40,137 bases of DNA from Anaerolineae bacterium (GTDB taxonomy: Bacteria; Chloroflexota; Anaerolineae; Aggregatilineales; Aggregatilineaceae), in contig JAFGTJ010000318.1 of NCBI GenBank assembly GCA_016934195.1, forward strand, positions 1-40,137, given 5' to 3'. A program made the translations under genes and the position numbers. Each line of letters opens with the position of its first letter. The first letter of the stretch is position 1. This document shows, in pieces, positions 1 to 28,916 of the stretch. The notes under the pieces are model-generated. The model was not told the origin of the DNA, ran no database searches, and was given only the letters and a program-made list of their open reading frames with translations.

Positions 1-179
1 CCAGCGGAAGTGGGGTCGGTCCCGGATTGGCTGGGGGCGGCAATCGAAGACGCCGGGGGAGATGTGCCGGAATTTGAAGACACGGACATGCCCGAACCGG
101 TGTTTGAGGACCTGTTCGGATCGGTGGATGACGCGCCGGATGCGCCAGCGGAAGTGGGGTCAGTCCCGGATTGGCTGGG
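1..179 (+). repeat. Direct repeat within CDS, 144 bp period (48 aa)
   Basis: ccagcggaagtggggtc[g/a]gtcccggattggctggg occurs at 1 and again at 145, encoding PAEVGSVPDWLGA twice. Confidence 0.85.
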
Positions 180-2742
180 AGCGGTAATGGAAGAACCGGA
201 AGAAGCTGCGCCTAGTGGTTTTACGGACCTCCTCGCGGCTTATGAAGCGCAGCACCCTGCCGCGAACCAGATTGATGATGTAGAGAGGGCGGGAGAAGGT
301 ATGCCGCCCGAATGGGAAACGGCATTGACCGGTGACGATGGGAAAGTTGTTTCTTCTGAGCCGGATGGATTTGAACGGGATGATGAAGCCGAGTTTTTTG
401 CTGCATTTGATGAGGTTGCTCCCGAATTTGACTTCGGCAGTGCGTTTGCTATGCCTGATGAGCCATCTTTCGACGAGGAGCCTGAGACAAGCTTCATGAC
501 ATCCGAATTGCCAGGAGACGACAGCGGCACGGTCACACCTGAAGAATTGGAAGCGCTGCGTCTGGCGACTATGCCACCGCCAGATACCGATTTTAGCGAA
601 TTTATGGAGCCTGAAGTTCCGGCTGATGTGGACTTTTTGGCTCCGGCAGTGGAATGGAGTGACCGGATTGCTCCGCCTCATGCTGAACAGACAGAGTTGG
701 ATGAAGCTTCTATCCAGACGGGGCAGTGGGTTGCTGAATCCGAATCTATGATAAGTGAAGCCTCGACAGAGATCGAGGAATGGGTCGCGGGATTTGAGGA
801 TGTGGTTTCACCCCCGATCTCAGCGATGCCAGATTCGGATGCCAGCGCAGAAGCGGAATGGGCTGGTATGAATGATGATACGGGCGAGGCGGCGGTGGAT
901 GATTGGCTTGATGATCTTTCGGTTCCAGATGAGGCCGAACTATTCGAGCCGGTTCCTGAAGTTGAGCAGGAGATTGCCCCGGTGCCGCCGGTTGAATCCG
1001 CATCCGTTGGTGAAGAACCGACTCAATTGTGGGTATCGGAGCAGGTGGAAGAGGACCCGGATTGGATGCCGTCTGGCGCACCAGATGATGATTGGTTAGG
1101 GTCATTTGCAAAGCCCCCAACCGGAGAATTATTTCCGGGTTATGAGGAGCCAGAAGAATCTGGCGTAGGGATGGAAGACGAGTGGGTTTCTCAGGAAGAT
1201 GACTTGACTGTTGGGTTTACCCCGACCGGTGAAGTGGATGATATGGCCCCGGCCCATTTAGACGATGTATTCGACAGTGTAGGTGGTGTGGAAGACGGCG
1301 AACTGGGAACAATACCTGATCTGGTAGAGACATTTGGCTCAGAGGAAATTGAATTTGCAGAATCCGGTGTCTCGCAGGCGGATATATTTCCCGATGACGA
1401 AGCTCCTGCTTGGATGGCGGATATTGCCCCGATTGAGATGTCTACCAGGAGTGTGTTAGACTCCGCTTACGATCCATTTGAGGGTGGGAGCGCTGATCAG
1501 GTGCCGGAATACCGGTCCGCCTCGGAAACTGGTATTTTGCAGCCTGATGAGAGTCCAGATTGGATGATGGCTTTTTCGGATGACGATCTGCCGGTGGATG
1601 GAGACCTGGAAAGCGCGGCATTCGGGGACGAGGCGGTTTCATTAGACGATTTGGACCTGGGATTTGATTTTGGCGCTGCGCCTGATGTGGTGTCACGGGA
1701 TAAACCTATTACGGATAGTCTGGCAGATATGACGTTTGATGAGCCGGATGATGTAGAGAGCGATTCTGCCGAATTGGATGAGCAAGCATTGGCGGCTGAG
1801 GGCGACGGTGAAATGCCTGATTGGTTGATGGCTATCACGAGTTCCGAATCCGACCAGTTGGAAGATACGGTTTGGGATGAACCCGATACCTATAGTTCTG
1901 CCGAGGACACCGGGGTCCTTCAACCGAGCAGCCAACCGGATTGGTTGGTGGATATGGCCGAATCGCCAGATGAAGAAGCGCCGCTTACAGGTGAATCGGG
2001 CGAGGTCGATGTGTTGCTGAACAACCTGTTTGACGACATGGATATCGACGAAGCACAGGGAACTCCGGGTTTAGGCAAGCGCATGGCAGATGCGGGTGAT
2101 GTGGTTGATGCGGACGAGGATTTCTTCGCCGCGCTGGGAGCAGCGGCGGGAGATGCCGGAACCGATCTGGACCTAGACGAGATGATGGCCGGAGTGGGTG
2201 ATGTCGGTGGAGACGCGGTAGAAATATCCGATGCGGACGATGATTTCTTCGCCGCGCTAGGAGCAGCGGCGGGAGATGCTGAGGCCGATCTGGACCTGAG
2301 CGAGATCATGGCCGGTGCGAGAGATGTAGCGGACGTGGCGGCAGTGCCGGATGCGGACGAGGATTTCTTCGCGGCGTTGGAAGCGGCAGATGAGGATGTA
2401 GAGATCGGGTTGGACCTGGGTGAGATCATAGCTGACGCGGCGGAAGCGGACGCCGAGTTCTTTGCCGCTCTCGATGCGGCTGAAGCTCAACCAGGGGTTG
2501 CGCAACCTGCCGATTTGCCCCATACTAAAGTGGTTGAGTTGGATGCGGACGATGACTTCGACGACGATCTGGGTGACGATGACTTCGGTCCAGGTAATTT
2601 TGCGTTTGATGGAAAGCAGCCTGCCTGGTTGCGTAAGCCCAAAGAGAGCGATAACGCGCCACTGATGGCAGATCAAGGACCAGCACCCGAATCACCGGAA
2701 TGGTTGCGCGATGCGTTTGAGAATGATGAGTCTGATAGTTAA
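1..2742 (+). CDS. Very acidic, probably disordered protein with repeated P-[DEA]-W-[LM] motifs (5'-truncated)
   Basis: Reading frame is open from base 1 (PAEVGSVPDWLG...), so the GTG at 10 is probably internal. Asp/Glu-rich, few Lys, no Cys seen. Motifs PDWLGAA, PDWLGAV, PDWMPSG, PAWMADI, PDWMMAF, PDWLMAI, PDWLVDM, PAWLRKP, PEWLRDAF. Confidence 0.85.
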   Translation, partial: PAEVGSVPDWLGAAIEDAGGDVPEFEDTDMPEPVFEDLFGSVDDAPDAPAEVGSVPDWLGAVMEEPEEAAPSGFTDLLAAYEAQHPAANQIDDVERAGEGMPPEWETALTGDDGKVVSSEPDGFERDDEAEFFAAFDEVAPEFDFGSAFAMPDEPSFDEEPETSFMTSELPGDDSGTVTPEELEALRLATMPPPDTDFSEFMEPEVPADVDFLAPAVEWSDRIAPPHAEQTELDEASIQTGQWVAESESMISEASTEIEEWVAGFEDVVSPPISAMPDSDASAEAEWAGMNDDTGEAAVDDWLDDLSVPDEAELFEPVPEVEQEIAPVPPVESASVGEEPTQLWVSEQVEEDPDWMPSGAPDDDWLGSFAKPPTGELFPGYEEPEESGVGMEDEWVSQEDDLTVGFTPTGEVDDMAPAHLDDVFDSVGGVEDGELGTIPDLVETFGSEEIEFAESGVSQADIFPDDEAPAWMADIAPIEMSTRSVLDSAYDPFEGGSADQVPEYRSASETGILQPDESPDWMMAFSDDDLPVDGDLESAAFGDEAVSLDDLDLGFDFGAAPDVVSRDKPITDSLADMTFDEPDDVESDSAELDEQALAAEGDGEMPDWLMAITSSESDQLEDTVWDEPDTYSSAEDTGVLQPSSQPDWLVDMAESPDEEAPLTGESGEVDVLLNNLFDDMDIDEAQGTPGLGKRMADAGDVVDADEDFFAALGAAAGDAGTDLDLDEMMAGVGDVGGDAVEISDADDDFFAALGAAAGDAEADLDLSEIMAGARDVADVAAVPDADEDFFAALEAADEDVEIGLDLGEIIADAAEADAEFFAALDAAEAQPGVAQPADLPHTKVVELDADDDFDDDLGDDDFGPGNFAFDGKQPAWLRKPKESDNAPLMADQGPAPESPEWLRDAFENDESDS
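2107..2490 (+). repeat. Tandem coding repeat, about 3.5 copies of a DADEDFFAALGAAAGDA...LDLxEIMAG unit
   Basis: Unit starts near 2107, 2230, 2350 and 2443 (periods 123, 120 and 93 bp, all multiples of 3). Nucleotide identity is high between the first two units. Confidence 0.85.
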
Positions 2743-2768
2743 TCATGACGCCCTGAGGAGGATATGGC

Positions 2769-5129
2769 ATGGTACCGCCCCCCGATAGTACGGGCGATGC
2801 ATTCCCCGATTTCGATAGCATGACTCCCGAAGAGCAAATGTCCTGGCTGGAAAGCTTGGCGAAGCGACAGGGTGTCACCGATGAAGAGTTAACCACTGCT
2901 GCCGATCAGGATATCCCGATACCGGAAAATGCGGTGATTGATGAGCCAGGCTACGTGCCGTTTTCGATAACGGGTGCGCCCAAACAAGATAAACTACGCG
3001 CTAAACCCGAACCGCCGCCGGTTGAAATGCCAGAGATGGTAGAACCGTTGGCGGCGGAGGAGCCTGAGTTGTTGGCGGATATTAGTGGTGGTGACGACCC
3101 GATGCAGTGGCTTGGATCGTTGGCGATTCAGTCGGAGGAGCCGGTTGCCGAGCCGGAGATGGTGCTTGAGTCTGCTCCCGAACCTGTTGATATTCCAGAA
3201 GTGGACCCGGATGACCCTCTGGGTGGACTTGATCCGATGCGCTGGTTAGAGAGTCTGGCTGCCCGGCAAGGGGCCAGCGTTGATCAGTTTACCACAGAAG
3301 CCGATCTGGATATCGAGGAATTACCCGAAGATACGGTGATTGATGAGCCGGGGTATGTTCCTTACGATATCATGGGGGGAACTTCCAAACCGGCGACTCG
3401 TCGGCCCGAACCCGAACCGGAACCAGTCGAAATCGAGTCTTTCGCTGAGGAGACTATTCTTGATCTGCCACCGCTCCCCGAATTGGAAATTGACCTGCCG
3501 CCGATGGTTGAATCGGAATTTGATCTGCTGGCGGATGCCGGACCAGGGTTTGATGTGTCCCCGGCTGCCCAGCCGGAATTAGAATTTGCGGGTGAGGGAC
3601 TATCCTGGTTGGAGGATTTGGCGGGCGAACCGGACGAGGATGTGTCCGATCTCCTGGCATTGGGTGATGATCTGCTGAGCGATCTGGAAACCTTTGTCGA
3701 TGAGGAAGTGCAAGCTGAATTGCCCCCGGTCGCGGCGGCTGACGCCGATTCGCTGAGTGACATGACGGATGAGGAAATCGCGTATGCCCAGGCGCGCGGC
3801 GAACTGACTCCTGCCCAGGAATTGGAATGGCTCACGCGCCAGGCATCGAAGCTGGCTGAAGTGCGCGAAGAAGCGCCGGTTGTTCCTGTTGCTCCGGTGG
3901 AACTGGAGATAGAGGAAGACCTCCTGTCAGTAGTGCCGGGAGAGCTTCCTGATTGGCTTCGGCAGATGCGTGAAGAGTCCGATGGGACTGGGGCGGTTTC
4001 TGAGAAGCCGCCCGCCTTTGAAGAAATAGCTTTGCCAGTTGGCGAGGATGATATCGCTGGATGGTTGGATGATAGCGCTGCCGAAGCGGAGTTTAACCTA
4101 TCCGAGCTAGAGCTTGACGCGGAAGCCGACGTCGAATCGCTGTGGGCCGAAACCCCGGAAACGATTGGGGAACTGGATGAGGAAGAAGCGCCCGCATCGG
4201 AACTTGAGGCGTTTTTGCAAGGCGATTCGGTGCCGGAAGAACCGGATCAACTGGCGGAAGCGCTCGATGCGGAGTATGAACGGCGCTTGATGGGCGATGA
4301 TGCCGAGCCGGGATGGTATACCGAAGCGGTAGAAAGAGCCGCCGAGGAATACGATTACGAGGCTGATGCGCCTGTTTCCGCGCGGGTAGTGATCAAGGAA
4401 CCGGAAGAAGCAGATGAGCCAACCGAAGAAATTTTGGCGGCGGCAGCTCCGATGGATATGCCCGACTGGTTGAGGGGCGTTGAAGAAACGGTCGGTGTGC
4501 CGGTCGAGGAAGAAATTCCTGACTGGCTGCGGGAAATGGATCAAGAACTGGCGTCTGCTGACGGGGTTCCCGCCTGGTTGACGGAAGGACTTGAGGCCGA
4601 ACTGCCAACGGATGCCGGGTTGGAATGGCTGGACGTGGAGTCTGAAGCGGGAACAATAGAGGAATTGTTCGCGTCTGAGCAGGCTCCTGAACCGGAACCC
4701 GCGCCGCCAGTGAAAGCCGCTGTTGAGCCTGCGCCTCCGCCGCGACCAACCGCACCGCCACCGCTGCCGCCGGTGTCCGTATCCGAACCGGAAATTGTGC
4801 TGCCAGAAGTCACGGCATCTATTCCCGAAGGCGAATTGTTTGAACAATACCGCCACCGGTTGGAAGCCGATCCCAACGATTACGCGAGTCGGCTTGCGCT
4901 GGCGCGCGCGCTGCGGACGAACCGGCGTTTGGAGCCGAGCCTGGATCACTACGAAATGCTGATCGGCAGTGCGCAGTTGTTACAGGACGTGTCGGCGGAC
5001 CTGGTAAGCCTGGTGGAGCAGCAGCCTGATATGCCGCGCGTCCGCCGTTTGTTGGGGGATGCCTTTATGCGGCGCGGGATGCTGTCACAGGCGCTAGAGG
5101 CGTATCGCGGTGCGTTGGAACAACTCTAG
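2769..5129 (+). CDS. Acidic W-motif protein with C-terminal TPR-like region
   Basis: 786 aa ORF; SD-like gaggagg at 2755-2761 upstream of ATG. PDWLRQM, PDWLRGV, PDWLREM, PAWLTEG motifs; C-terminal LEADPNDYASRLALARALRTNRRLEPSLDHYEML...RRLLGDAFMRRGMLSQALEAYRGALEQL is TPR-like. Confidence 0.85.
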   Translation: MVPPPDSTGDAFPDFDSMTPEEQMSWLESLAKRQGVTDEELTTAADQDIPIPENAVIDEPGYVPFSITGAPKQDKLRAKPEPPPVEMPEMVEPLAAEEPELLADISGGDDPMQWLGSLAIQSEEPVAEPEMVLESAPEPVDIPEVDPDDPLGGLDPMRWLESLAARQGASVDQFTTEADLDIEELPEDTVIDEPGYVPYDIMGGTSKPATRRPEPEPEPVEIESFAEETILDLPPLPELEIDLPPMVESEFDLLADAGPGFDVSPAAQPELEFAGEGLSWLEDLAGEPDEDVSDLLALGDDLLSDLETFVDEEVQAELPPVAAADADSLSDMTDEEIAYAQARGELTPAQELEWLTRQASKLAEVREEAPVVPVAPVELEIEEDLLSVVPGELPDWLRQMREESDGTGAVSEKPPAFEEIALPVGEDDIAGWLDDSAAEAEFNLSELELDAEADVESLWAETPETIGELDEEEAPASELEAFLQGDSVPEEPDQLAEALDAEYERRLMGDDAEPGWYTEAVERAAEEYDYEADAPVSARVVIKEPEEADEPTEEILAAAAPMDMPDWLRGVEETVGVPVEEEIPDWLREMDQELASADGVPAWLTEGLEAELPTDAGLEWLDVESEAGTIEELFASEQAPEPEPAPPVKAAVEPAPPPRPTAPPPLPPVSVSEPEIVLPEVTASIPEGELFEQYRHRLEADPNDYASRLALARALRTNRRLEPSLDHYEMLIGSAQLLQDVSADLVSLVEQQPDMPRVRRLLGDAFMRRGMLSQALEAYRGALEQL
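2838..3371 (+). repeat. Duplicated ~45 aa module WLESLAxRQG...VIDEPGYVP
   Basis: MSWLESLAKRQGVTDEELTTAADQDIPIPENAVIDEPGYVPFSI (2838-2970) and MRWLESLAARQGASVDQFTTEADLDIEELPEDTVIDEPGYVPYDI (3237-3371); a partial copy, MQWLGSLA, lies between. Confidence 0.8.
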
Positions 5130-5226: not shown

Positions 5227-5676
5227 GTGGAACGTACACTCATTATCATCAAGCCCGATGCCGTCCAGCGCGGTCTGATCGGTGAGATCATTCGCCGGTT
5301 TGAGAATCGCGGTCTTCGGATGGCGGGTATGAAATTGATCCAGGTCAGTAAAGAATTGGCCGCGCAGCACTACGGCGAGCATAAGGGTAAGCCATTCTAC
5401 GAATCGTTGATTGCTTACATCACGTCTGCGCCGGTTGTGGTGATGGTGTTAGAAGGGAACAACGCGGTAGCGATTGCGCGGAACACCATTGGCAGCACCA
5501 GGCCGGTTGACGCGGCTGCCGGGACCATTCGCGGCGACCTGGGGATGGAAGTGGGACGCAATCTGGTACACGGCTCGGACAGCCCGCCAAGCGCTGACCG
5601 CGAACTGGCGCTTTTCTTCGCGCCGGGTGAATTGATCGACTGGACGCGGGATACCGACCGGTGGATTTTTGAGTAG
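5227..5676 (+). CDS. ndk: Nucleoside diphosphate kinase
   Basis: VERTLIIIKPDAVQRGLIGEII...NLVHGSDSPPSADRELALFF, with active-site HGSDS. GTG start after aggagg; the ORF track start at 5161 is upstream of this. Confidence 0.97.
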   Translation: MERTLIIIKPDAVQRGLIGEIIRRFENRGLRMAGMKLIQVSKELAAQHYGEHKGKPFYESLIAYITSAPVVVMVLEGNNAVAIARNTIGSTRPVDAAAGTIRGDLGMEVGRNLVHGSDSPPSADRELALFFAPGELIDWTRDTDRWIFE

Positions 5677-5770: not shown

Positions 5771-6199
5771 TCATTGGATGCGAACCATGACCGGGGCTTC
5801 GCGCCACAATCCTTCGAAATCGTAATAGGATCGGCGTTCGGGCAGGAACGCATGAACCACCACGTCCCCAAAATCAAGGAGCACCCACCCGCCGGAAGCC
5901 TGGCCGTCCATGCGCCAGGGCCGAATGTTATGCTGCTGTTTTGTTTCCAGTGCGATGTGTTCTACGATGGCCTTAAGCTGCCGCTCACTGGTGCCGCTGA
6001 CGATGACGAAAAAGTCCGTTACAGGTGATACCTGCCGCATGTCCATTAAGATCACGTTTTCGCCCTTTTTGTCAGATGCCAGATCGACAATAATGCGGGC
6101 CAATTCTATAGGTTCCAGCGGTCTAACCTCCTGCACTGAATAACGGTAAGATTCATTGTAGCACAACTTGGTATCCGTGCCAGGGTGCGTAATGTCCAT
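5771..6199 (-). CDS. rsfS: Ribosome silencing factor RsfS
   Basis: DMRQVSPVTDFFVIVSGTSERQLKAIVEHI...GWVLLDFGDVVVHAFLPERRSYYDFEGLW is typical of RsfS/Iojap. The start may be internal. Confidence 0.93.
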   Translation of the reverse strand: MDITHPGTDTKLCYNESYRYSVQEVRPLEPIELARIIVDLASDKKGENVILMDMRQVSPVTDFFVIVSGTSERQLKAIVEHIALETKQQHNIRPWRMDGQASGGWVLLDFGDVVVHAFLPERRSYYDFEGLWREAPVMVRIQ

Positions 6200-6942: not shown

Positions 6943-9291
6943 ATGGCTCAGGAACAGGCCCGACAATTGCTTCAGCAGGGAATCGCGGCAGCGCAAGCCG
7001 GTCAGAACGAGGCGGCTCGTCAGGTGCTGCAACAAGTCGTCCGGCTTGATCCCCAGAATGAAATGGCGTGGCTGTGGTTAAGCAGCGTGGCACGAGATAA
7101 CAAAGAGCGCCTTTTTTGTTTAAAACAACTTCTTGCCGTTAATCCACAGAATGAGCACGCGATTAAGGGGTTGCAGCGCCTGGGTGTAGAGCCAGAAGCG
7201 CGTGTATCGAACGCGCCCAGTTCCCCAATCCCCACCGTGAATGAAGAGAAAATGGCGCGTTTGCAGCAGGCCACCGATGAGTTTCTACGGCGTTTTAACC
7301 CGGAACCGGTTGATCACCTGCGCATCGAGTGGACGCGCAAGCAGCGGCGGCGCTACGGAGAATCGGGAGCCAGGCGGTTGCAGCGCATTTTGTATGCGGC
7401 GGCGGCTGTGTTGGTTATGGCGGTAGTGGGTGTACTGGTCCTGGTAGCCGCCAATGTTGATATTTTGGGAAGTGACGGGCAGGGATCGGCGGCGTTGGCG
7501 ACCTGGATTCCGACTGTGACGCCTACTCAAACCCTGATACCGACTCTGGGCGGTGCAACTCCCACGCCTTTCCCGGAGCAGATGGCCGTCCCCGTGACCG
7601 AAATGCCACCCGCTAACTGGTCACCAGGGGACCCGTATCGCCTCATTACGCCGACCGTGATTTATCCGCGTGTCGATTCAAGCCTGATTCGTATTTTTGA
7701 GAAGGGGATCAATTACCACGCCAACGGTGACTATGCCGAAGCTATCGAGATATTTGCCGCCGAACGCGAAAATTCCAAGCACTGCCGCCCGATTGTGTAT
7801 TATTACGAGGCGTTGAGTCTGGCAGAGCAGGGCAATTACGCCTTAGCAAAAGAGCGGCTCCAGGAAGCGCAAGATTTTCAGCCGGACCCAGGATTTGAGT
7901 CGTGCCAGGGATCGCCGTTGATCCCGGCGGCATTGGGATACGTGTGGTATCTGGAAGACTCCCGATCCCAGACGGCGCTTAATTACGCGAACCAGGCGCT
8001 AAGCATGGACCCTAAATTCGTGATTGCCAGCGTAATCAAAGCCGGGGTTCACCTGGCGAACGGGCAAATTCCAGAAGCGCGCAGCACCATTACCCAGGCG
8101 TTGTTGGAATGGCCCGCTGACACTAATCTGCTGGAAATGGCTGCAAAAATCGAGATTTCGGACGGGCAGTTCCAGGCGGCGCTGAATCACCTGGGTCGGG
8201 CGTTATACGTGGACCCGGCGTTGCATCCCGCATTGGTGCTTCAGGCCGAAACCTATCTCCGGCTGGGGGATGGCGCGCAGGCCGGAACCGAAGCTGAGGT
8301 TGAGTATTACGGATTGGCGGTGCTCAGCGCGCAAACGCTGCTGCTGTATTATCCGGGTGATTCGTTGGGGTATTTGCTGTTAGCTCAGGGCCGTGTGGGT
8401 GAGGGGAATTACGCGATGGCGGAAACGGCCCTCACCCGGATCATTGCGGTTGAGGACAGCTTGCCGTCTGAGGCGGTCCCGGTAGTGCGCGAGGCGTACC
8501 GCATGTTGGGCGAAGTGCAGTATGCTTATGGGCGCGACGAGGATTTGGAACAGGCGCAGCAGGCATTTCAGCATGTGTTGATCACGGATCGGGGGATTGA
8601 TCCGGTAGTGGCCGAGCGGCTGTATGATATTGCGCTCCGGTTGCGCGATTACCCAGAAGCCAGGAGTCAACTTGAAGCGCTGCTTTCCGTTGAACCGGGA
8701 AATCGTACCTGGCAGTTGCAGCGGACCAGGATGCAGGTCGAGATTTGTACGCTGTATTCGACTGGCGTGCCGTGTGATTATGATGGGATGCTGCGACTGT
8801 TAGGTGACGAATTTATCAACAGTCTGCCGGACGAGATGCAGCGCGCCGACGGGTATTCATACCGGGCGCAGGCGCGTTACCAGGATACCCGATCCAGGGG
8901 CGACAATCTCAGCGAGGCCGACCGTCATCTGGCGTATGGACTGGCGCTAAACGATGTCACGCAGGCGCTGGCGATGCGCGACTCAGCGGTTGACCATTAC
9001 TACCGGGGCTTGATTCTGGAAGCGTTGGCCGAACCGGTCAAGGCATTGGAGGAATACCAGTGGGTCCAGTATTGGGACGCACTGTATGCTTATCCGTTCA
9101 GTAATGCTGAATTCGACCGGCGGCTGGCTAATCTGGCTGAGCAGGTTGGCGAACTGGTAGTTGAACCAACTGGCGAGGCTTCGTCCACCGGCGCAACGGC
9201 AACGCCTGTTTCCAACCAACCCGTTCCCACTGCGACACCTGCGTTCACAGCCACGCCGGGATTGCCACCGGCTGCGCCGGAGCTGCCATAA
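6943..9291 (+). CDS. TPR-repeat membrane-anchored protein with Thr/Pro-rich linkers
   Basis: MAQEQARQLLQQGIAAAQAGQNEAARQVLQQVVRLDPQNEMAWLWLSSVA; one hydrophobic segment ILYAAAAVLVMAVVGVLVLVAA; multiple TPR-like units; TPT/ATPG-rich segments. Confidence 0.85.
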   Translation: MAQEQARQLLQQGIAAAQAGQNEAARQVLQQVVRLDPQNEMAWLWLSSVARDNKERLFCLKQLLAVNPQNEHAIKGLQRLGVEPEARVSNAPSSPIPTVNEEKMARLQQATDEFLRRFNPEPVDHLRIEWTRKQRRRYGESGARRLQRILYAAAAVLVMAVVGVLVLVAANVDILGSDGQGSAALATWIPTVTPTQTLIPTLGGATPTPFPEQMAVPVTEMPPANWSPGDPYRLITPTVIYPRVDSSLIRIFEKGINYHANGDYAEAIEIFAAERENSKHCRPIVYYYEALSLAEQGNYALAKERLQEAQDFQPDPGFESCQGSPLIPAALGYVWYLEDSRSQTALNYANQALSMDPKFVIASVIKAGVHLANGQIPEARSTITQALLEWPADTNLLEMAAKIEISDGQFQAALNHLGRALYVDPALHPALVLQAETYLRLGDGAQAGTEAEVEYYGLAVLSAQTLLLYYPGDSLGYLLLAQGRVGEGNYAMAETALTRIIAVEDSLPSEAVPVVREAYRMLGEVQYAYGRDEDLEQAQQAFQHVLITDRGIDPVVAERLYDIALRLRDYPEARSQLEALLSVEPGNRTWQLQRTRMQVEICTLYSTGVPCDYDGMLRLLGDEFINSLPDEMQRADGYSYRAQARYQDTRSRGDNLSEADRHLAYGLALNDVTQALAMRDSAVDHYYRGLILEALAEPVKALEEYQWVQYWDALYAYPFSNAEFDRRLANLAEQVGELVVEPTGEASSTGATATPVSNQPVPTATPAFTATPGLPPAAPELP

Positions 9292-26606: not shown

Positions 26607-28916
26607 TTGACGGATTATTATCGTCAATTGGCCGCGCGCGCGCTGGTTTTGCTGCTGGTAACGTATGTGCTGGTGTTTGGCGGCACGTTCAACGGTATGT
26701 TGAATATGCCGTTTCCGGTAGTGTCGTTGGTCCTGCTGACGATCCTGGCGGTGGGCTGGTTGGTGATTTTGTGGATTCGCCCGCTTCAGGTTTTGCCCGG
26801 TGCGCTGCTGACTCCGGCAATAGCGTTATGGGCGGCGGCATTCATTTTTTCCACGCTGTATAACTCGTCTGGACGGACCTATACCGGGCTGTGGTATGCC
26901 GGACTTTATACGGCGGCGTGGTGGGTATTGAGCGATTGTCGGCAGCGGGGACTGCGCGGGCAGTGGATCACCGATGGCGCGCTGTTGGCTTCGGTTCCAC
27001 TGCTGATTTTTGGACTGGCCCAGGTGATGTCCTGGTTTCCGGTATGGTTGGTATTGGATGGAGTTGAGGTAGCCTTTATCCCACCGCGTCCGTCTGGCAG
27101 CCTGGGGAATCCCAATACGTTTGGAGCGGTGTTGGCGCTGCTGCTGCCGTTCGGCATTGTGCGGGCGCGTTGGTCCGAACGATCCCCGGATCGCGTGTTG
27201 TGGAGTCTGTGGGTGTTGGCCGCGTTGGGAATGCTGTATCTGACGTATTCACGCGGCGCGTGGTTGGCTGCCGGAGTCGCCCTGGTGACGCTCAGCGGGC
27301 TGGCGTTGCATCGCTGGAATCTGGTCAACTTCGCTGCGTGGCGCGCGTGGTGGAGACGACTGCCTCACCGTATACGGTTCGGAATCGGGGCGGGGGGATT
27401 GGTGGTGCTGGTGCTTGGCGTTGCATTGGTATTGGCTGCGTTGCGCGCATTTGATACGCCGCGCCGAGATACTGGCGAACGCATCCGGTTTTACGAAACG
27501 GCTGTGCGTGATTTCCGCGATCAGCCATTAACCGGAACCGGCCCATTTACGTTCGGTCTGAGCCTGCTCGAAGAATTTTCCGTCCCGCCCGATCATCCTC
27601 ATGCTCACGCGCATAATCTGGTCCTTAATGTCGCGGCGGAAATGGGACTGCCGGGCCTGATCGCGCTGGCGGCAACCGTGATGCTGATCGCACGGCATGG
27701 TTGGCGCGCGTTGGCCCGCGCGCGGGATGTGCGTGAATGGGCATATACGGCGGCGTGTGGCGCGGCGTTGGTGGCGATAGGCGCGCATAGCTTGATCGAT
27801 ATGCCGCTGATGACTCCGGCGGTGATGCTGCTGGTATTGGGCATTCTGCCGGTAGGGGCGTATAACCATACGCCCCCACAAAACCCATTTGTCAGCGGTA
27901 TCTTATACCGGCTTGCAGCACTGGCATTATGGGGATCGGTGCTTGTCGTGGGATGGTGGTCGGTGAGCATATACGCGGATTACGTGCGCGGCGAGCGGCT
28001 GTTAGTAGATGGCGAATACCGGGCAGGTGCGGACGTGCTGCGTGAGGTGGCCGCTGCACAACCCGATATTGCGCTGTATCACGCTCAATATGGCTATGCG
28101 TGCGGATTGGCGGTGTATGCCGGTGATGAAACCCTGTTGCAGCCGGGAATCGCCGCGTACCGGCGCGCGCTGGACCGTGAAGCGCCTCACGCGGTCTGGT
28201 GGACCAATCTCGCCGCGTTGTACTGGCAGGCGAACGAATACGATCATGCGATCAGCGCCATGTTGCAAGCGGTGGATTATGCGCCGGATGATCCCGATTT
28301 GTGGCTTAACCTGGGCGTGTATTACGAGGAATCGGGTCAGAATACGCAGGCGCAGGAAGTGTATCGCCGGGTATTGGCGCTGGATGTGCGGTGGGGACAT
28401 GCGTCGTTCTGGACCTTAACCCCACTGCGGCGCGAACTTCTGGCCACCAATCCACCGCTGCCCACGCCATCTATGCGTGCTGAACGTTTATGGCAGGCCG
28501 GGCAGCGTGACGCGGCGCTGGACATTCTCCAACGCGAAATCGACCGCGATCCCACGCAGCCGGACCCGTATACGGACATCGCGCGCCTGTACCTGTTAGC
28601 CGGGGAATTGGATCGCGCCGGGGATTACCTGGAGGCGGCGCGGTTGCTGATTCATACTGATTTGGGGCGAGCGTGGTTATATGCTGTTGAAGCTGAACTC
28701 GCGCTGGCAAAGGGGGATCATGAGATGTGGGCCGCACGCCGCGAGTCGGCGCGGGATTTGGTGCTGCCGGATAAGACCGGGCGCACGTTGTATTACGGGC
28801 GCGAGGTTGCGTATTTCCAGTTTTTGCGTGTGCGGGTGCGCGGATCGCTGCTGCCACAGGTCAACGCACTAGGACCTGATCCCATCCTGGCTGATCTGCT
28901 GTTCAGCCGCGAGTAA
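26607..28916 (+). CDS. O-antigen ligase/Wzy_C family membrane protein fused to C-terminal TPR region
   Basis: Many TM segments; [43 protein letters not shown] ligase signature; C-terminal TPRs ([49 protein letters not shown]). Confidence 0.88.

Follow-up and report, generated by a model that had tools for sequence, protein, structure and literature searches.

Two adjacent acidic proteins encoded upstream of ndk in Anaerolineae as apparent halves of one ancestral Chloroflexota protein with TPR domains at both ends

What might a pair of long, acidic proteins studded with tryptophan motifs do in a bacterium, and are they by descent two proteins or one? This question is raised by the first two genes of the window, a stretch of 40,137 nucleotides that forms the start of contig C286 within a Chloroflexota MAG of 564 contigs, whose named relatives are Anaerolineae, Aggregatilineales and similar MAGs. 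The first-pass annotation had described a tandem acidic gene pair, and its placement of the two genes was correct. P1 (1..2742, + strand) is open at the contig start with its 5' end cut, and is represented here by its C-terminal ~913 aa, an acidic linker with PDWL, PAWM and PEWL motifs and a tail that reads ...PAWLRK...PEWLRDAFENDESDS; the PxWLR pair at this C-terminus is conserved in most orthologs. P2 (2769..5129, +) is a protein of 786 aa with WLESLA modules, a PxWL linker and a C-terminal TPR domain. The intergenic distance is 26 nt and, by direct reading, contains a ribosome-binding-site-like GAGGAGG (2755..2761, +) just 5' of the P2 start. The usual gene downstream of the pair is ndk, specifying nucleoside diphosphate kinase, which is found here at 5227..5676 (+; PF00334, E=5e-55, and synteny), with a GTG start and AGGAGG upstream, and it is followed by a convergent rsfS (5771..6199, -), a neighbour often kept within this bacterial order.

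The missing start of P1 was located on another contig of the MAG, C431 (L005, G000:C431, minus strand), where the reading frame agrees. The terminal part of a 48-aa tandem repeat array (GSVPDWLGAAIEDAG...FEDLFGSVDDAPDAPAEV) occupies 1..260 (+) of the window and carries on into C431, and it is within this coding repeat that the two contigs overlap, with 93% identity over 260 bases and an exact match over the last 80 nt (181-260). The repeat is probably what caused the assembly to break between them. Joined at the shared anchor, P1 comes to ~1382 aa, the number of repeat units being uncertain. Its N-terminal ~260 residues are a TPR domain, so P1 is not wholly disordered, and since Cys is present in this domain the earlier description of the pair as cysteine-free applies to the linkers only, with zero Cys in the window part of P1 and in P2 residues 1-690. 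As the MAG divides one P1 gene between two contigs, an annotation of it would give two partial genes.

Within the order, P1 and P2 are adjacent and co-directional wherever one contig holds both, with ndk next at most of these loci and then often a convergent rsfS. At four further loci (L128, L136, L138 and L144) a single ORF has a P1-like TPR region at its start and a P2-like TPR region at its end, and is followed by ndk. Searching the phylum with L136 gave a strong match in 109 of 301 genomes, mostly on the N-terminal TPR domain (N-TPR), and among forty loci fetched from this search the untruncated ones proved, in the large majority, to encode fused TPR-linker-TPR proteins, with ndk downstream at most of them. 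The module WLExLAxRQG was found in none of 38 P1s and in 44 of 50 P2s, and in those fused Anaerolineae proteins that have it the module lies between a first PDWL stretch and the C-terminal TPR domain (C-TPR), at 0.49-0.85 of the protein's length. Because of this position, and the occurrence of the module in P2 only among split proteins, the fused form can be read as P1 and P2 in order, the collinear arrangement being TPR-PDWL-WLESLA modules-PDWL-TPR. The window pair has the features that define the family, an N-terminal TPR, an acidic linker and a C-terminal TPR, carried by one protein or by two adjacent ones, and on the sequence comparisons P1 and P2 are the halves of one ancestral Chloroflexota protein with the layout TPR7 - acidic linker - TPR3.

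In a quick maximum-likelihood tree built from 79 N-TPR rows, all 38 split rows fell on one side of a single branch, of moderate support (82) and with some fused rows long-branched; on this tree the split or fused state required one change, vs about 26.5 with shuffled labels. Since all split forms make up one clade, one fission explains them, and the simplest history would be a single fission in the ancestor of the order. Whatever joined the two halves must now, following fission in this one order, act between two chains. Three other matches of the phylum search (L196, L199 and L206), with Cys in their C-termini and no ndk, were judged to be unrelated TPR proteins.

The association with ndk is frequent and can be lost. 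Among the ndk loci sampled in the order, a P2-type C-TPR was directly upstream in 18 of 30 by a strict pattern, a regular-expression scan that misses at least one true case (e.g., L225). In several genomes of family f7, P2 and ndk are on different contigs, and one locus (L060, in G023) has P1 and P2 together without ndk. Since the pair is kept at L060 and at other f7 loci while ndk is elsewhere, it needs no adjoining ndk, and because of these losses NDK is best regarded as a neighbour and not as a proven partner.

The tryptophans of the linkers are far from randomly placed. Over the 913 aa of P1 that lie in the window there are 19 W and nine PxW[LM] motifs, against 0.15 expected (5000 shuffles, maximum 3), and P2 residues 1-690 have 13 W and four such motifs, against 0.2 expected (shuffles, maximum 3). 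The pattern is present in every listed ortholog, which bears out the repeated P-x-W-[LM] motifs noted earlier. Pooled over 38 P1 tails, W makes up 2.9% of residues, preceded by P at -2 in 40% and by D at -1 in 50%, and followed by L/M at +1 in 70%; in 50 P2s without their TPR, W makes up 2.2%, and the flanking values are ~40%, 34% and 77%, with L at +4 in 37% and A at +5 in 38%. The logo of the pooled family is PxW[LM] and favours no aromatic residue at +4, the window P1 taken alone having F at that position in 3 of 19. Such a profile suggests an N-capped amphipathic helix, as do the short helices that start at several motifs in the AlphaFold2 model of P2. In 13 comparisons of close orthologs, identity was 92.8% at W, 82% at +1 and 77% at both -1 and -2, vs 61% for the linker, and the values at the flanking positions are more telling than that at W, a residue that is widely conserved anyway. 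The motif is also found again in diverged proteins with non-alignable linkers. The first-pass annotation had left room for the W motifs to lie in a known Pfam domain or to be no better conserved than the acidic linkers around them; membership of a known folded domain was rejected, no Pfam family covering the linker, and the identities just given are well above that of the linker. In Pfam and NCBIfam the window P1 had no match and P2 had only TPR and chance matches, and the fused forms gave a few profile matches over linker modules with no single passing stretch. Clusters of PDWL-type DNA words in the window's genome were seen only at this locus among the matches listed. The idea that many proteins genome-wide carry PDWL found no support there, the other hits among the matches listed in that genome being scattered.

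Alignment of the P2 proteins (A1) revealed, besides the PDWL motifs and the C-terminal TPR, several copies of a module DP[ML]xWLESLAxRQGA..EE..T.AD.DI....VIDEPGYVPY, a TDEEIAxAQAxGxLTPEQELAWLKRQA stretch and an EPxWYxE stretch. In the window P2, module 1 (aa 20-62; 2826..2954, +; WLESLAKRQG...VIDEPGY) has columns that are invariant in A1 and a predicted helix at 20-33 (pLDDT about 79-87), and module 2 (aa 155-198; 3231..3362, +; DPMRWLESLAARQG...VIDEPGYVP), also recognized from the alignment, has one at 156-166 (pLDDT 82-89). Two helical islands lie beyond these, one at aa 331-370 (3759..3878, +; TDEEIAYAQARGELTPAQELEWLTRQASKLAE) with pLDDT 93-94 and conserved in A1, the other at aa 490-532 (4236..4364, +; LAEALDAEYERR...PGWYTEAVERAAEEY) with pLDDT about 81.

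AlphaFold2 predicted the window P2 (48 rows) to have islands at 15-45, 155-185, 330-370 and 490-530 (pLDDT 79-94) and a C-terminal domain at 689-786 (4833..5126, +) of six helices, or three TPRs, at pLDDT 96-98, with the remainder, including most PDWL sites, at 40-60. The C-terminal domain, which gives a sub-threshold Pfam TPR match in the window P2 and passes the threshold in an ortholog, agrees with the TPR-like region recognized in the first-pass annotation. In L136, a minimal fused homologue of 636 aa, residues 7-242 were predicted to form 14 helices (seven TPRs), mostly at pLDDT 92-98, and 539-635 six helices (three TPRs) at 93-98, the linker between them, with its six PxWL motifs, being mostly below 50 except for a helix at 457-475. 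Both models are of single chains, from shallow alignments of 41-48 rows, and in them, where docking could appear in cis only, the PDWL motifs appeared as short undocked helix starts with no docking apparent. The picture of a pair dominated by acidic linker is accurate for the linkers of P1 and P2, which are predicted to be largely disordered, and has to be amended for the N-TPR of P1 and for the conserved modules and helical islands of P2. The N-TPR, the relation of P1 and P2 as halves of one protein, and the P2 modules (WLESLAxRQG...DEPGYVPY) had not figured in the earlier description.

Both ends belong to the TPR superfamily: Pfam TPR was above cut-off in one orthologous P1, in one orthologous P2 and in fused forms, and helices at pLDDT 92-98 and TPR matches in Foldseek agree with the fold. 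Foldseek with both models found generic TPR proteins only, and so did sequence searches of Pfam, NCBIfam and PDB, with no NCBIfam equivalog at its cut-off. MamA, PilF/PilW, LapB and PrsT resemble the family in their TPR fold, through weak NCBIfam matches far below cut-offs and through Foldseek matches; to our knowledge, none of them has an acidic W-motif linker between two TPR domains. Several residues of the N-TPR are conserved across the phylum (P38, P72, A101 and D167 100%, R165 98%, E99 93%, N203 91%), which suggests a specific interaction. The literature searched contained nothing relevant to the family or to a comparable signature protein of Chloroflexota. The family is widespread in a large, poorly cultivated phylum and has neither a name in the libraries searched nor a describing paper among those found.

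The motif content of the linker differs between lineages. Fused proteins from the same class are mostly PxWL-rich and most of those from other classes have few PxWL motifs or none; with PxWL-rich defined by a cut-off of 3 motifs per 1000 aa, chosen by the analyst, this state needs five changes on the N-TPR tree. In seven homologues (L170, L178, L180, L181, L183, L186 and L193), PFSLEELGLSPEEIA-like repeats, in up to about 24 copies, stand in place of PDWL. The linker repeats of L183, L186, L178, L181, L170 and L193, all from outside the class, are PFSLEELGLSPEEIA(Q/A)LE-like units, and several PFSLEELGLSPEEIA-repeat homologues have a single [FY]SWQ[QE]P motif instead of PDWL. The TPR-end signature is constant throughout, including in lineages without PxWL linkers, and because the ends are conserved where PxWL is absent, binding of PDWL is not their sole conserved role. 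Judged from these sequences, the linker looks like a multivalent array in which the motif has been exchanged. The family could serve as a natural experiment on the evolution of disordered multivalent linkers, as the folded ends are kept and the motif differs by lineage.

The reading favoured here, with a probability of roughly 0.6, is that P1 and P2 are the products of one gene fission and act together as a cytosolic multivalent scaffold encoded upstream of ndk. No signal peptide or membrane segment was apparent on reading the family sequences. The TPR ends of such a scaffold would take folded proteins or peptides as partners. Its linker would offer a partner many weak, similar docking sites, which in Anaerolineae may be short N-capped amphipathic helices of the form P-[DEA]-W-[LM]-x-x-[LMA] and in another lineage have apparently been replaced by PFSLEELGLSPEEIA-type repeats. 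These sites could gather a partner, or several copies of a complex, into a cluster, and the P1 and P2 halves may be joined by module-module or motif-TPR contacts. Against a scaffold, the disordered acidic tail could act instead as a spacer or solubility tag. Should it prove to be a scaffold, it would join the few large disordered hubs of bacteria whose motif grammar can be read. It could be speculated, as a tentative and somewhat doubtful extension, that the protein is a scaffold found throughout the Chloroflexota, divided once into two proteins that cooperate, in which PDWL was swapped for PFSLEELGLSPEEIA between lineages and both TPR ends were kept, and that it acts as a bacterial organiser of a cell structure or of a condensate, its motif code evolving more rapidly than its folded ends.

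It is rather unlikely that the docking site of the W motifs is on a folded protein other than P1 and P2, which could be a membrane protein or a metabolic enzyme and possibly NDK, and that the TPR ends take cargo, in the manner of a PEX5-like receptor. PEX5, the eukaryotic peroxisomal import receptor, shares the general layout of disordered, repeated W motifs and a cargo-binding TPR domain (PMC9795577, PMC8086558), and its WxxxF/Y motifs give multivalent weak binding (PMC9795577). With its long disordered region of repeated W-centred short motifs and its TPR domain, it is the closest working analogue. The greater constraint on the motif than on the linker, and the usual position of ndk downstream, would also suit an external partner, but part of one family keeps P1 and P2 without the link to ndk, and the window TPR protein at about 6946-9291 adjoins the pair in only part of the loci. 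The differences from PEX5 are considerable: the motif here is PxW[LM], WxxxF/Y having failed to hold when tested, TPR domains are present at both ends, the linker is strongly acidic, and the protein is bacterial with no known translocation partner. The C-terminal TPR domain of PEX5 binds the PTS1 peptide, and PEX5 TPR structures were seen only among many generic Foldseek TPR matches, a similarity that is itself only generic, and the P1/P2 family is PEX5-like in layout without being a member of the PEX5 family.

The docking originally proposed, of W-L motifs on TPR, would place the PDWL motifs in the concave groove of the family's own TPR domains, in cis or across the P1-P2 pair, giving a self-crosslinking network or an autoinhibited state, and we consider it improbable. 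There is a precedent in the kinesin-1 light chain, whose TPR groove binds W-acidic/LFP motifs, including in cis autoinhibition (PMC6224480), and the motifs described here are similarly acidic and W-centred, and numerous; the conservation of N-TPR residues beyond the TPR consensus would be in keeping with it. The present family differs from kinesin in having tens of motif copies within the protein itself. Against the docking, no sign of it in cis is apparent in the AlphaFold2 models of P2 or L136, where the motifs have pLDDT 40-60, the TPR ends are conserved in proteins without PxWL, and the TPR domains have a slightly negative net charge, averaging about -2 to -3 per 100 aa, so that they make no obvious acceptor for acidic peptides. 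A largely disordered, multivalent pair with conserved W-L motifs outside Pfam is what stands of the earlier proposal. That the linker is a low-complexity acidic spacer under essentially no selection, its W motifs arising by chance or by mutational expansion of a tandem repeat, is very improbable, for although a 48-aa tandem repeat of recent origin makes up part of the array and similar near-identical repeat strings occur in other species, this is largely refuted by enrichment far above shuffles and by conservation of W, +1, -1 and -2 beyond that of the linker in ortholog pairs. The motif is, moreover, shared by diverged proteins with linkers that cannot be aligned.

Some minor observations concern the surroundings of the pair. 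The window TPR protein at about 6946-9291 has one apparent membrane segment and a Thr/Pro-rich C-terminus; its counterpart is close to P1-P2 in the close relatives L077, L079, L085, L092 and L094, and on the opposite side of P1 in L083 and L084. Further along, at 26607-28916, the window encodes a membrane protein that, on reading, resembles an O-antigen ligase and has C-terminal TPR-like repeats. Finally, a contig labelled 'Bacteroidetes bacterium' carries a P1-P2-ndk locus (L127) with an N-TPR almost identical to that of a Chloroflexota MAG locus (L131), and this contig has probably been mis-binned.
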